Origin: a virus
Strand: one strand, 5' to 3'
DNA: 34,566 nucleotides
Virus record (IMG/VR): IMGVR_UViG_3300036863_000061
Coordinates: 1-34,566 of that record
A program made the translations under genes and the position numbers. Below, in pieces: positions 29,535 to 34,566 of this stretch (position 1 is the stretch's first letter; each line of letters opens with the position of its first letter). The notes under the pieces were generated by a model. It saw only the letters and a list, made by a program, of their open reading frames with translations. It did no database searches and was not told the DNA's origin.

Positions 29535-29750
29535 CTACCCCTGTTCCTCGAGGACCCAGCCGTCGCCGTCGCCGTGGTCGACGTAGCCGCCGGCGTGCAG
29601 CTCGTCGACCGCGTCCGGCTTGGCCGGTTCCGGCTCGGGGGGCGCCTTGACCGGCTCGGGCTTGACCGGTTCGGCCTTGACCGGCTCGGGCTTCTCGGGC
29701 TGCGCCTTCTTGACCGGTTCGGCAGCCTTCGCCTTGTTGTCTGCCATCAC
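29535..29750 (-). CDS. Pro/Lys/Glu-repeat small protein
   Basis: 71 residues. A repeated EPVKxEPVKPEPVK-type segment covers roughly residues 10-48 (PEKPEPVKAEPVKPEPVK), and the end is acidic and Gly-rich (AGGYVDHGDGDGWVLEEQG). The repeat is disordered in character. The ATGA overlap at 29747-29750 follows the capsid stop, so it is coupled to the highest-level late gene. Perhaps a virion linker or small head protein; function unknown. Confidence 0.6.
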   Translation of the reverse strand: MMADNKAKAAEPVKKAQPEKPEPVKAEPVKPEPVKAPPEPEPAKPDAVDELHAGGYVDHGDGDGWVLEEQG

Positions 29751-32700
29751 GTGATCCGGATCCCGGACAGGCCCACCGGGCGCAGCAGGTGGGTGGCGAA
29801 GTAGCCGAACACGTTCAGCTCGATCAGCGCCGGCCCCGACTTCTCCTCATACCGGAAGGACAACAGCGGCGACTCCCACGCCCACGCGTCAGCCGGGTTG
29901 AGGATGAAAATCTGGGTGTCGCCCGCGGCCGTGCCGGTGGCCGCCCACGCCGGGATGAAGTCGAGCCCGTCGACGGACCAGCCTTGGGTGATGGCATTGC
30001 CGACACCGGCCGTGTTCGTAGCGCCGATGGACGGGAAGACGGGCCGGCCGGTCGTGTCGACCGCAGTGGCGAGGATGGCGGTGGCGTTCTGACCCATCAA
30101 CCCGACGCCGGGGGCGCCGAACCGGTTGAACGGGTACGCGGCAAGCCGGGCACGGATGCCGGCGATCAGCGCCGGTGGGGTGCCGGTGGTGCCGACATAA
30201 GTGGCGGCCTGCGCACCCGAGGGCACAAACCCGGCGGTGATGGTGCCGCCGGAGCCGTTGGCGCCGTTGAGCAGGGTGTACACCTTGGCCTCGGTCTGCC
30301 GGGCGTACGACTCCCGCATCGTGGCGAGGGCGATCTGGTCGATGGCCGGGTTCGACGAGTCGACGATTTCGCGGGTGAGGATGAGCCGACCCGAGATCGC
30401 ACCAGGCGTGACCGTCTTCGTGGTGAACGACACGGAACCGTCGGTGGGGTTGGTGCCTTCCACATGGTCTGCGGTGACCGCGGTCGACGACACGAAGATC
30501 GGCACCACGAATGGGGTCGCGTTGTCGATGCTGCCGCGGGACAGGGCGTTGACGAACGGTCGGCCGCGGAGCAGCTCCGACACGTACAGGTCGGGGCGGT
30601 AGCCGGGCGGAATGATCTGCGACGCCGTCGATGTGGTCGTGGTCGAGAATCGGGCCGTGTTCAGCTGCGCCACCGCCAGCTTGGCGATCTCCTCGGTCTG
30701 CTCCCGGTACTTGCGGAGCCGGCCCAGCGCGTCGTCGTCGCGTTGGGTGGCCGCGTAGTAGGCGTCCCGCACCAGCGAGTTGCCCATCCCGGAGAACGCG
30801 TACACGGGTGGTTCGTAGGTGACGTGGAAGCGGGCCGCCCGCACGGTCTGCGGGCCTTCCTGCGGCGCTGGCAGATTCTCCAGAGCGGTTTTGAACCCGG
30901 CGGAGATGGCGTCGCCGATCGAGTCGCCGAGCCTGGCGGTCAGCGCCTCATGCGCCTTGGTGGTCTGCTCGGCGAACTTGGCGAGGTGGTCGTTGATGTC
31001 GAACTGGGGCGACTGCTCGGCCGCCGGGGTAGCCGTCTGTGCGGCCATCGTGGTCCCTTCGTTGTCTCTGCTGGCGGCGACACGCGTCACCCGCGCGTCA
31101 TCAAATGCGGGATTGGCTACCAGGGCAGCGGCGAACAGGGTGCCTTGCGACACCAGGTTGACCGAACTGTCAGACGGATCCGGATCCCAGCTGTCGCCGT
31201 TCTCGGTGCGGAAGTCGACTTCGGCGCTGAGCCCGTCGAGGATCTTGTCCTGGGCGAGGTTGAGCGCCCGGTCACCTTCGGGACCACGGGCGATTTTGAA
31301 CGTGGCAACCAGCCCTTTGGAGCCGGACTGGAGCCGGGTTGAACGGCCGATCAGCGACGCATGACCCGGCAAGTGATCGAGATTCAGCTTCACCCGATCT
31401 TCACTCGACCAGGTCAGCGACCCCGGCGAGAAACGCCATTTCATGCCCCCGGACCGGGCGACCTTGCCCCACGGCACAAGCAGGCCTTGGATGGTGCGCC
31501 GCTCAACGTCCACCGAGAACGTCTCGGCGACCTCCGGAGTGTCGAACTGGACGCGGACGGTGTCGCTGTCGTCGGCGTCGAACTTGACCGGCTCCGAACC
31601 GTTGGCCATGGCGGGCGCCTCCCTCTGCTGCGTCGGTGCCGGCGCGGGCGGGGCGGGCGGGGCGACTGGTTTACGGGCGGCCTTCTGCGCCGGGGTCAGA
31701 TTCGGCCGGTCCTCGAGCTCGCGGATCTCGTCGTCGACGTACGCGCCGACCTCAAGCCCGGTCTTGTACGCGTCCATCCGGGCCTGGGTGTCGCCGCGCA
31801 GGAAACCAGCGAAGTCGATCCGGGTCACATAGCCGCGGGGTAGGACGTCCCGCATCGACAGCCGGTCCTGGATCGCAGACACATAGGTGCCCAGGGTGAG
31901 GTTGATCAGTGCCTGCCACCGCTGTTCCTGGTTGGCGTACGTGCGCGAGGTGGTGGACACGCCCAGGTCTTCGGGGTCGACACCGGTGGCGCGGGCCACC
32001 TCCAGGACGGCGTGTTGGCGGGCATCGGCCAGTTGCAGCTGCTCCGGCGACCACGTCAACGGGGTCGGCTTCAACGCCTTCACATACGCCCACGCGTGCC
32101 GGGACCGGGCCAGCGACCAGTTGTCGAGGAGCTCTTCAATCTCCTCGTCGGGAAGTATCTCCGCGTCGGCCTGCGGCTCGAGGACACCAACCGGCATCGG
32201 CTCATCCGCATACAAAGCCGCCGCCTGATCCAACTTCAAACACGACCGGATAGCGCGGGCGGCGTGGCGCAGCAGCGGCGGATTCGGCGAGTCGAACCGG
32301 ATGACCTGGTTGTCCGGGACCGGTATCCCATCGATGTACACCTGACCGCCGGCCGCCGGGAATGACTGGTCGGGGCCGATCTGCATCGCCGACGGCAGCA
32401 GCGAACCGGTCTGCGCCACATGCACCGAACCCACCGGAACATGCCGGGCCTCGACCGGGTAGCCGTGCCACCCGAACTTGGTGACCTGCCACCAGGCGAC
32501 GCCCTCGAACAGCAGATCCTCAACCGTGTAGCTCATGATCACCGAACGGGGAATGTCCGGGTCCGGGTCCGGCACCAGATACTGCACGTCGGTGACGATC
32601 CGGCGGTCGGGGCCGTGAACCCGCAGCGGCAGGGTGCCGAGGCTGCCGCAGATCAGGTTCCGGGCCCGCAACAGGGCGGGCACCTGCAACGCCTCGCCGC

Positions 32701-32857
32701 GGGAGATCCGGGCGGCGATCGACCCGCCCGACGTCATGCCCTGCAACATTTCCGGGGGCACGTCGACGGAGAACCGCGCCGCGGGGGGCGGCGCGGTCAT
32801 CTGCGCTTCGGTCGGCAAGCCGAAGAAGATTTTCCGCCAGAAGGACGGCACGACCAC
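29747..32857 (-). CDS. Portal-protease-capsid triple fusion
   Basis: 1036 residues in one frame. Residues 1-395 are an HK97-type portal (LRARNLICGSLGTLPLRVH; YTVEDLLFEGVAWWQVTKFG; RATGVDPEDLGVSTTSRTYA). A Pro/Ala linker (396-416) follows. Residues 417-600 resemble the S78 prohead protease (TIQGLLVPWGKVARSGG; LNLDHLPGHASLIG with H495; ILDGLSAEVDF). Residues 604-1036 hold a delta-like helical lead and an HK97 major capsid fold (VVPIFVSSTAV; ISGRLILTREIVD; the AKVYTLLNGANGSG block). No stop or frameshift separates them. Portals are normally separate proteins. Internal ATGs at 31609 and 31048 have their own ribosome-binding sites. GTG 32857 lacks one. Confidence 0.86.
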   Translation of the reverse strand: MVVPSFWRKIFFGLPTEAQMTAPPPAARFSVDVPPEMLQGMTSGGSIAARISRGEALQVPALLRARNLICGSLGTLPLRVHGPDRRIVTDVQYLVPDPDPDIPRSVIMSYTVEDLLFEGVAWWQVTKFGWHGYPVEARHVPVGSVHVAQTGSLLPSAMQIGPDQSFPAAGGQVYIDGIPVPDNQVIRFDSPNPPLLRHAARAIRSCLKLDQAAALYADEPMPVGVLEPQADAEILPDEEIEELLDNWSLARSRHAWAYVKALKPTPLTWSPEQLQLADARQHAVLEVARATGVDPEDLGVSTTSRTYANQEQRWQALINLTLGTYVSAIQDRLSMRDVLPRGYVTRIDFAGFLRGDTQARMDAYKTGLEVGAYVDDEIRELEDRPNLTPAQKAARKPVAPPAPPAPAPTQQREAPAMANGSEPVKFDADDSDTVRVQFDTPEVAETFSVDVERRTIQGLLVPWGKVARSGGMKWRFSPGSLTWSSEDRVKLNLDHLPGHASLIGRSTRLQSGSKGLVATFKIARGPEGDRALNLAQDKILDGLSAEVDFRTENGDSWDPDPSDSSVNLVSQGTLFAAALVANPAFDDARVTRVAASRDNEGTTMAAQTATPAAEQSPQFDINDHLAKFAEQTTKAHEALTARLGDSIGDAISAGFKTALENLPAPQEGPQTVRAARFHVTYEPPVYAFSGMGNSLVRDAYYAATQRDDDALGRLRKYREQTEEIAKLAVAQLNTARFSTTTTSTASQIIPPGYRPDLYVSELLRGRPFVNALSRGSIDNATPFVVPIFVSSTAVTADHVEGTNPTDGSVSFTTKTVTPGAISGRLILTREIVDSSNPAIDQIALATMRESYARQTEAKVYTLLNGANGSGGTITAGFVPSGAQAATYVGTTGTPPALIAGIRARLAAYPFNRFGAPGVGLMGQNATAILATAVDTTGRPVFPSIGATNTAGVGNAITQGWSVDGLDFIPAWAATGTAAGDTQIFILNPADAWAWESPLLSFRYEEKSGPALIELNVFGYFATHLLRPVGLSGIRIT
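31046..31060 (-). promoter_or_regulatory. Internal ribosome-binding site before the capsid domain
   Basis: Within the fused late frame, GAAGGGA (31060-31054) lies 5 nt before ATG 31048-31046, which is codon 604, at the start of the capsid part (MAAQTATPAAEQ). This would give a separate 433-residue capsid precursor in larger amounts. Confidence 0.7.
31607..31625 (-). promoter_or_regulatory. Internal ribosome-binding site before the protease domain
   Basis: GAGGGAGG (31625-31618) lies 8 nt before ATG 31609-31607, codon 417 of the fused frame (MANGSEPVKF), at the boundary of the Pro-rich linker and the protease. It would allow a separate protease-capsid product without the portal. Confidence 0.7.
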
Positions 32858-32987
32858 AGGCTAGCAGCAAGATTTGCTGTAAATGCCTGCTCACACGTCA
32901 TCATTTCCTGTCATGAGGTGATCAGCGTGACCCGGTCGCGACCCACCGGAATCCCGCTCGACCGAGCCATCCAAAGGGAGCCCCATA
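32858..32987. promoter_or_regulatory. Divergent late promoter region
   Basis: 130 bp between the leftward head operon and the rightward terminase genes. A perfect short hairpin, CAGCAA/TTGCTG (about 32865-32879), lies just upstream of the portal start. I find no convincing pair of -35/-10 elements for the leftward gene; weak TTTACA and TAGCCT motifs are too close together. Late transcription may therefore need a phage activator. Confidence 0.4.
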
Positions 32988-33395
32988 GTGGCAAGATCCG
33001 GCCCGCTTGAACTAGGCGTCACAGCATCGCTGCGGGACACCCCCCTGATGAAACGAGATCAGGCGGCCGCGGCACTAGCACGCCGATACGCGCGGCTCAT
33101 CGATGAAGCGTCACCGGCGGCGAAGTACGAAGAACCACTGCGCAAGATCGCCGCAGCGCTCGACCGCGACGACGAAGCGGCCGCCGACGCCTACCGCAAG
33201 ATCGTCACAGCATTGTCGCAACACTCCGTCGCCAGCGACCTGGGGCCGAAGCTACTTGCGGCACTCGCGGCGTGCGGCATGACCCCAACATCACGTAACG
33301 CGAAGAATGGTGGAGCCGGTGGCCCTGTTGTCAGCGACGAGCTCGGCGCACTCCGGGCCCGCGCGCAGCAACGGCGACGTGCTGGGGCGCACTGA
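32988..33395 (+). CDS. Terminase small subunit
   Basis: 135 residues. It recognises the packaging site and loads the large subunit. A basic front (LMKRDQAAAALARRYARLID), helices (KYEEPLRKIAAALDRDDEAA; DAYRKIVTALSQHSVAS) and a C-terminal basic tail (LGALRARAQQRRRAGAH) fit the small, helical, actinophage terminase-small type. GTG 32988 has AAAGGGAG 8 nt upstream. Its end overlaps the large-subunit gene. Confidence 0.75.
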   Translation: MARSGPLELGVTASLRDTPLMKRDQAAAALARRYARLIDEASPAAKYEEPLRKIAAALDRDDEAAADAYRKIVTALSQHSVASDLGPKLLAALAACGMTPTSRNAKNGGAGGPVVSDELGALRARAQQRRRAGAH

Positions 33396-34566
33396 GCCAC
33401 GGCTATGGACCCCGCCGCTGCGGCCGCTCACCCCAGCCACGTCGTACGGATTCGACGTCATCGAATTCGCCGACGGCCGGCTGCGTCACCCGCTGCGCCC
33501 CTGGCAACAATGGCTGGCCATCCACGCCGGCGAGCTACTACCCGACGGCCGCCCCCGGTTCCGGATCGTCCTCGTCCTCGTCGCCCGGCAGAACGGCAAA
33601 ACCGAAGTCCTCGTCGTGCTGTCACTGTTCTGGCAGTTCATCGAAGTGGTACCCCTAATCCTGGGCACCTCCACGAAACTCGACTACGCCAAAGAGTCGT
33701 GGGGTAAAGCAATCAAGCTGGCCGAGCGCACCCCCGACCTGGACGCATTACGGGCATCGCGGTGGAAGCGTGAGGCCAACGGCGAACAGGAATCGTGGAC
33801 CCTCGAAGACTCCCGATACAAGATCTCCGCCAGCAACGAAGAAGGCGGCCGGTCCCTCACCATCAACCGGCTGATCGCCGACGAACTACGCCAACACCAC
33901 GACTACTCAGCGTGGGGTGCACTCGAGCCGGCCGCGTCACCGCTCGACGCCCAAATCTGGGCGCTATCCAACATGGGCGACGACCGGTCGGTCGTGCTCA
34001 ACGACCTACGCGACGCCGCACTCGCCTACATCGAAACCGGCGTCGGCGACCCCCGGCTAGGCATCTTCGAATGGTCATCGCCGAAGGACGCCGACCCGCA
34101 GGATCCTGAAGCGCTCGCCATGGCCAACCCCGAATACGGACGCCATCTAGACCCGGATGTACTGCTCGCCGCAGCAGCCCGCGCAGTCGCCAAGGGCGGC
34201 GAAGCGCTCACATCGTTCAAAACCGAACGCATGTGCATCCACGTCAAACTCCTCGACCCGGCCATCGACCCCGGCGCCTGGGCACGCTGCCTCGACGTCG
34301 GCGACCTGTCATCCGCCCGCTCGCATGTGGCACTGTGCCTCGACGTCGCACCGGACGGACAACACGCCACCCTCACCGCAGCCGCCGTAATGCCCGACGA
34401 CCGGGTCCGGCTCGAGGTAGTCGCCGCGTGGGACGGCACCGACTGCCTCGACCAGCTACGCCGCGACCTGCCCGACCTGCTCCAACGCATTCGGCCGCAA
34501 GTCCTCGGATGGCTACCCGCCGGGCCCGCAGCCGCACTCGCCGCCGACCTAGCAGACCGGCGGAAA
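33307..34566 (+). CDS. Terminase large subunit (partial)
   Basis: At least 420 residues, continuing past the right end. It is the ATPase-nuclease motor that pumps DNA into the prohead. Typical start LRPWQQWLAIHAGELL, Walker A ARQNGKTE (93-100), and a Walker B-like LIADE (189-193). WSSPKDADPQDPEALAMANP further supports the family. The nuclease domain is largely off the window. The start is uncertain: ATG 33307, GTG 33319 and GTG 33379 are all in frame. The frame overlaps the small subunit gene. Confidence 0.88.
   Translation, partial: MVEPVALLSATSSAHSGPARSNGDVLGRTEPRLWTPPLRPLTPATSYGFDVIEFADGRLRHPLRPWQQWLAIHAGELLPDGRPRFRIVLVLVARQNGKTEVLVVLSLFWQFIEVVPLILGTSTKLDYAKESWGKAIKLAERTPDLDALRASRWKREANGEQESWTLEDSRYKISASNEEGGRSLTINRLIADELRQHHDYSAWGALEPAASPLDAQIWALSNMGDDRSVVLNDLRDAALAYIETGVGDPRLGIFEWSSPKDADPQDPEALAMANPEYGRHLDPDVLLAAAARAVAKGGEALTSFKTERMCIHVKLLDPAIDPGAWARCLDVGDLSSARSHVALCLDVAPDGQHATLTAAAVMPDDRVRLEVVAAWDGTDCLDQLRRDLPDLLQRIRPQVLGWLPAGPAAALAADLADRRK

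Follow-up and report, generated by a model that had tools for sequence, protein, structure and literature searches.

A long-standing question is how phages equip each head with exactly one portal, some protease and capsid subunits by the hundred. It bears on a 34,566-nucleotide stretch of the virus record IMGVR_UViG_3300036863_000061, here called the window, where all three proteins lie in a single frame. On its minus strand, open reading frame analysis revealed one stop-free frame of 1036 codons (29747-32857), so that an earlier note on this DNA, which had claimed such a frame without any stop between the domains, was right at these coordinates. The frame encodes an HK97-type portal, an S78 prohead protease and an HK97 capsid protein bearing a delta domain, with two disordered linkers between them:

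31709..32677 (-): portal domain, residues 61-383 (PF04860; matches 3kdr and the HK97 portal)
31535..31666 (-): linker 1, residues 398-441, of low confidence or disordered, proline-rich, housing internal start 1
31070..31504 (-): S78 prohead protease domain, residues 452-596 (Pfam, and invariant His495 and Ser544)
30878..30997 (-): delta-like scaffold helix, residues 621-660 (AlphaFold model)
29750..30595 (-): HK97-fold major capsid core, residues about 755-1036 (Pfam, PHROGs and Foldseek)

Pfam assigned Phage_portal (PF04860) to residues 61-383 (2e-33), Peptidase_S78 to residues 452-596 (2e-7) and Phage_capsid to residues 767-947 (7e-5, slightly below the curated cut-off). PHROGs also gave a portal match, and the capsid identity is backed by phrog_2263 and phrog_617, both described as 'major head protein', the former spanning the protease plus the capsid (residues 434-1031, 1e-46). 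His495 and Ser544, the catalytic-type residues of the protease domain, are invariant in 51 of 51 sequences. An AlphaFold model calculated from 51 triple-fusion sequences (mean pLDDT 70.6) shows the portal domain, the protease domain, a delta-like helix (621-660) and the HK97 core, whose placement relative to each other is not meaningful because the pTM is 0.37. Foldseek searches of the PDB with this model returned near the top the HK97-family portal of Corynebacterium diphtheriae (3kdr), the HK97 portal and many HK97-fold capsids. Two unusually long viral proteins also match the model, UPI001E813648 (884 aa) and BFVD entry A0A6J5S481 (1201 aa, uncultured, 'Phage portal protein'); the latter may represent another portal fusion, in different phages. 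The proline-rich linker that the earlier note had placed at residues 396-416 is present, and the structure prediction that it had proposed for this linker locates both joints in low-confidence linkers (residues 398-441 and 584-620), each coinciding with one internal start. Portal, S78 protease and HK97-fold capsid with an N-terminal delta domain, in that order, constitute an HK97-type head module. The same three folds are found in the same gene order in HK97 gp3, gp4 and gp5, and the fusion of the delta scaffold domain to the capsid protein is common to both (PMC10275583), but in HK97 the portal, protease and capsid are three separate genes whereas the window has one 1036-codon frame.

In scans of virus contigs and GTDB genomes we gathered 171 loci including the window, 119 of them remaining after removal of duplicates and 104 being classifiable, in that all three domains could be placed. 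All three domains share one frame in 52 of these 104 loci; the portal and protease are in one frame and the capsid in another in 6, and the portal stands alone with the protease and capsid in one frame in 46. The protease-capsid joint is fused in 98/104 loci. No free protease gene was found in the 104 classified loci, the protease being always in frame with the portal, the capsid or both; a less close relative, carried by a Pseudonocardia plasmid, has the protease and capsid as ordinary separate genes. The 52 triple fusions form 41 clusters at 80% capsid identity, and 16 of them belong to 15 genomes of named actinobacteria, 12 from isolates and 3 from genome bins, namely those of Jiangella, Micromonospora, Salinispora, Nocardioides, Prauserella, Amycolatopsis, Saccharomonospora, Aurantimicrobium and one Micromonosporaceae bin. 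Prophage hosts with a triple fusion include Micromonospora rosaria, Jiangella asiatica and Prauserella flavalba. The triple head-gene fusion occurs in a virus family infecting Actinomycetota, and the earlier statement that few fusions include the portal was an understatement. A profile run on 396 genomes of one phylum matched the seed genome alone, therefore the triple fusion is rare as a prophage. Among the matches listed for diverse queries, which very divergent capsids would escape, there was no triple fusion in a cultured phage or plasmid.

The window is a contig of an uncultivated virus, and an assembly or sequencing error could mask stops at the joints, an objection named beforehand. A 96%-identical contig of another record and 50 further contigs or genomes are equally open, and a whole-genome search found uninterrupted frames of 1051-1168 codons in three isolate genomes and of 985 codons in the Nocardioides bin. 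The open frames of the relatives, isolates included, rule out such an error, whose probability we regard as practically nil.

Both joints carry a candidate internal start:

31618..31625 (-): Shine-Dalgarno sequence GAGGGAGG of internal start 1, 8 nt before ATG 31609
31607..31609 (-): internal start 1, ATG codon 417, for protease-delta-capsid; rank 1 of 49 by Shine-Dalgarno strength, with overlap in split relatives
31054..31060 (-): Shine-Dalgarno sequence GAAGGGA of internal start 2, 5 nt before ATG 31048
31046..31048 (-): internal start 2, ATG codon 604, for delta-capsid, within disordered linker 2 (residues 584-620)

The strong ribosome-binding sites previously reported before ATG 31609 and ATG 31048 are indeed the top two among the 49 in-frame ATG and GTG codons, with Shine-Dalgarno (SD) duplexes of -12.3 kcal/mol (rank 1) and -9.2 kcal/mol (rank 2); the probability of exactly such a pair is 1 in 1176. 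We compared the best SD in each joint with that of in-frame segments of equal length taken from the domains of that frame, using one value per 80% cluster. This comparison took over from a synonymous-codon shuffle, a low-power test (median p 0.07 for the capsid joint and 0.37 for the protease joint) that is weak partly because the SD is to a large extent dictated by the residues encoded there. At the capsid joint, the median rank fraction was 0.014 in the 41 triple-fusion clusters (KS p about 1e-32) and 0.022 in the split-portal loci (19 clusters). The search proposed earlier for portal-HK97 capsid fusions with conserved internal SD sites yielded the 52 loci, of which 49 (94%) keep the capsid-joint SD at -7 kcal/mol, a value reached by just 12.8% of background windows. 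L149 and L169, both Nocardioides fusions, have no capsid-joint start at this cut-off and carry a protease-joint SD instead, and the capsid-joint SD of L088 is barely under the cut-off (-6.3 kcal/mol); every triple fusion therefore has at least one plausible route to a portal-free capsid. In the 6 loci with an out-of-frame capsid, the capsid start is nested 74-98 nt within the protease frame and has a strong SD. Nested internal initiation at the capsid joint is strongly supported by these comparisons.

The predicted free capsid protein of loci L079, L142, L151, L163, L170, L011 and L160 shows a zinc-ribbon-like CxxC..H motif at its extreme N-terminus, directly after the internal start (for example MKCTKCGLEH, MQCTVCGTVH, CATCGQIHAEG and CVHCGQPHAPN). 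This motif is absent from the capsid N-terminus in the window.

At the protease joint, the same comparison gave a median rank fraction of 0.111 (p 5e-9). An SD of -7 kcal/mol is present in 62% of triple fusions against 12.8% of background windows, and a strong one is missing in 20/52. Where the portal is split off, 35 of 46 loci have a protease start that overlaps the stop codon of the portal, 4 nt being the commonest overlap. Taken with the nested out-of-frame capsids, these overlapping starts indicate that initiation inside the upstream frame is a habit of the family regardless of frame agreement. The nested translation that the earlier note had proposed for both joints thus holds at the capsid joint on comparative evidence; at the protease joint, sequence comparison supports it in the window phage and about 60% of its triple-fusion relatives, while it looks absent elsewhere. 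A free protease-capsid product would therefore not be general, and in the triple fusions devoid of this start the protease seems to exist in the full chain alone.

Could the full chain be the sole translation product, cut into three proteins by its built-in protease, with the internal SDs persisting as relics? The protease lying in the middle of the chain looks active, with His495 and Ser544 invariant in the 51 sequences, and flexible linkers flank it on both sides. However, such a polyprotein would force the portal:capsid ratio to 1:1, whereas phage heads require 12 portals and hundreds of capsid copies. Moreover, the capsid start and its SD are kept in nearly all relatives, including those whose capsid lies in a different frame and therefore cannot derive from a polyprotein. 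We consider this explanation improbable.

The start of the full chain bears another kind of signal. The annotated start, GTG at 32855-32857, has the second weakest SD of the frame (+1.4 kcal/mol, rank 48/49), and the start given in the earlier note as GTG 32857 is likelier to be GTG 32851 (1034 aa), which lies 6 nt past the hexamer TAGCCT:

32858..32863 (-): TAGCCT, a -10-type box (TANNNT), 6 nt before GTG 32851
32849..32851 (-): probable leaderless GTG start of the portal and full fusion, by the TANNNT rule (PMC3160421)

A TANNNT box about 12 bp upstream of the start marks leaderless genes, which account for more than 20% of Actinobacteria genes (PMC3160421). The first T of TAGCCT is 12 nt upstream of GTG 32851, an arrangement conserved in the relatives, and TAGCCT is the sole TANNNT on the minus strand from just upstream of the gene through its end. 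We scanned the portal starts of the 50 triple-fusion loci with enough upstream sequence and of 43 portal-split loci. A TANNNT box ends 5-8 nt before an ATG or GTG at the portal start in 39/50 triple fusions, against 2.8 expected from shuffles, and the spacing is 6 or 7 nt in 37 of these 39; portal-split loci gave 4/43 against 1.9 expected. Most triple-fusion portal starts thus combine the lack of an SD with a TANNNT box, the signature of a leaderless mRNA. The earlier note overlooked this signature, which offers a route to low portal versus high capsid output.

A link between the leaderless start and the fusion was considered and rejected: the raw difference (39/50 versus 4/43) vanishes in phylogenetically independent pairs and reflects shared ancestry. 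We therefore claim the two only as features of the clade, and neither need have arisen for the sake of the other. There is no TTGAC enrichment upstream of the TANNNT box that would indicate a -35 box. The motif GAWTC (GATTC or GAATC) is enriched upstream of the portal start (12/30 clusters against 2.1 expected; for example L140, L164 and L165), frequently some 18-21 nt upstream of the TANNNT box, and is possibly a -35 element or an activator site.

Internal promoters exist in the head operons of other phages, and a separate shorter transcript could supply the free capsid in place of internal initiation. We nevertheless found no TANNNT inside the frame of the window in a same-strand scan, hence no internal promoter of this type, and TANNNT boxes upstream of the capsid joint average 0.06 per locus in the relatives, near the background of 0.03. 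The internal-promoter explanation finds no support here and seems slightly less probable still than the polyprotein.

The upstream surroundings of the portal start are as follows:

32988-33395 (+): ORF between the portal and the terminase large subunit, possibly the small subunit, a guess by position alone
33307..34566 (+): terminase large subunit, divergent from the portal and running off the window

Only about 0.14 kb is left for promoters between the portal start and the ORF at 32988-33395 (+). The terminase ORF of the window is homologous to the portal-adjacent terminase ORFs of most relatives with enough upstream sequence. It reads away from the head genes, unlike in the usual terminase-portal operon. 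In triple fusions the terminase is divergent (the window and 10 other loci) or separated from the portal by a gap, and in the main split clade it reaches or overruns the portal start. On the other side of the fusion, a 71-aa ORF at 29535-29750 (-), whose start overlaps the fusion stop (GTGATGG), has KPEPVKAEPVK-type repeats and terminates with DGWVLEEQG; downstream of the fusion, L003-L005 show a comparable ending, GWVLTDRGW.

A portal tree of 107 sequences, built by a quick method, requires 12 changes in total for the three architectures; its starred branches force at least 8 changes of the triple state, and joint 1, between portal and protease, repeatedly opens and closes. The fused and split states interchange at least 8-12 times, which speaks for independently initiated overlapping genes whose portal stop is lost when their frames agree by chance, readthrough being tolerated and functionless. 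This neutral explanation is also backed by the split forms, whose starts likewise overlap the frame upstream; it is compatible with the internal starts and departs from our preferred reading on whether the fused chain matters. Against it, about 43 same-frame portal-protease clusters are stop-free over the linker, whose median length is 46 codons, and about 3 are interrupted by a stop, whereas composition alone would leave about half of such linkers open, although this cluster count is uncorrected for shared ancestry. The protease-capsid joint, fused in nearly all loci, and the linker-1 lengths of the window and L002, which differ by a multiple of three, also argue against neutrality. The count of open linkers hints that selection keeps the frame open, or keeps ribosomes flowing into the next start. 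We regard a neutral fusion as possible, though well short of an even chance.

Comparable fusions exist in other phages. In lambda C/Nu3, the protease has the scaffold as its C-terminal part, and initiation at an internal in-frame codon supplies excess scaffold. Tethering and stoichiometry follow the same logic in both, the window family likewise having a conserved internal in-frame SD start; however, the nested partner in lambda is the scaffold alone, the capsid and portal are separate genes and the protease belongs to another family. The tripartite capsid gene of Salmonella phage Gifsy-2 (Effantin et al. 2010, Virology 402:355, as cited in PMC7762592) likewise unites protease, scaffold and capsid in one gene, but its protease is reportedly ClpP-like and the portal is excluded, which makes it a separate event.

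Closer to the window, the available text of PMC7302621 and PMC5513430 describes protease-scaffold-capsid fusions in small actinobacteriophages (Microbacterium cluster EE, Arthrobacter AM/AU/AN, Gordonia CW/DM and Rhodococcus RRH1). In these phages too, the protease, the delta or scaffold region and the HK97 capsid share one frame, and the sequences are homologous: tblastn of the window's frame matches Arthrobacter and Gordonia phages. A strong in-frame internal SD start directly follows the protease region in 5 of the 6 cultured fusions examined (Arthrobacter phage MooKitty, Sourignavong, Microbacterium phage McShie, Kels and Rahul), while the strongest start of the sixth, Emperor, is codon 121. 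Unlike the window and its 51 relatives, the cultured matches listed have their portal annotated as a gene of its own. An internal start is not mentioned in the available text of the two papers, and in the part of the literature searched we found no description of a portal-protease or portal-capsid fusion, nor of a portal joined to a protease-capsid fusion with conserved internal starts.

We observed the frame with its domains, the leaderless signature and the internal starts, including where these lie, how strong they are and how well conserved; the products, their amounts and the proteolytic trimming described next are inferred from these observations. We think it likely that one transcript combines a weak leaderless entry for the portal and fusion with a strong internal SD entry for the capsid, followed by protease trimming. 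The portal, prohead protease, delta scaffold and major capsid would form the first gene of a single transcription unit with up to three ribosome entry sites. Leaderless initiation at the first codon of the mRNA would yield the portal-protease-capsid chain at a low level. The SD start in linker 1, present in the window and clear in about 60% of triple-fusion relatives, would yield protease-delta-capsid, and the strong, near-universal SD start in linker 2 would yield free delta-capsid as the bulk product. The prohead protease would probably then trim the linkers and delta domains, so that the portal, protease and capsid are no longer joined once the head is mature. Portal subunits with a C-terminal protease-capsid tail of about 620 residues may not assemble unless cleaved. 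The protease is tethered to a shell component in all 104 loci and, by analogy with lambda C/Nu3, this tether would carry it into the prohead.

The full chain could itself be an assembly part, each copy in the portal ring bringing a protease and a tethered capsid subunit, a proposal that we find rather doubtful. The shell nucleus and the maturation protease would then reach the single portal vertex by covalent linkage, and leaderless versus SD initiation on one mRNA would set the head stoichiometry.

This one-frame family with two kinds of start signal would make head stoichiometry testable by single-codon changes. The leaderless portal start would provide a concrete way of setting low portal against high capsid output, and an overlooked internal capsid start is predicted in the cultured, annotated phages with protease-capsid fusions. 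The repeated fusing and splitting of these genes with their starts kept suggests that gene fusion and independent expression can coexist.
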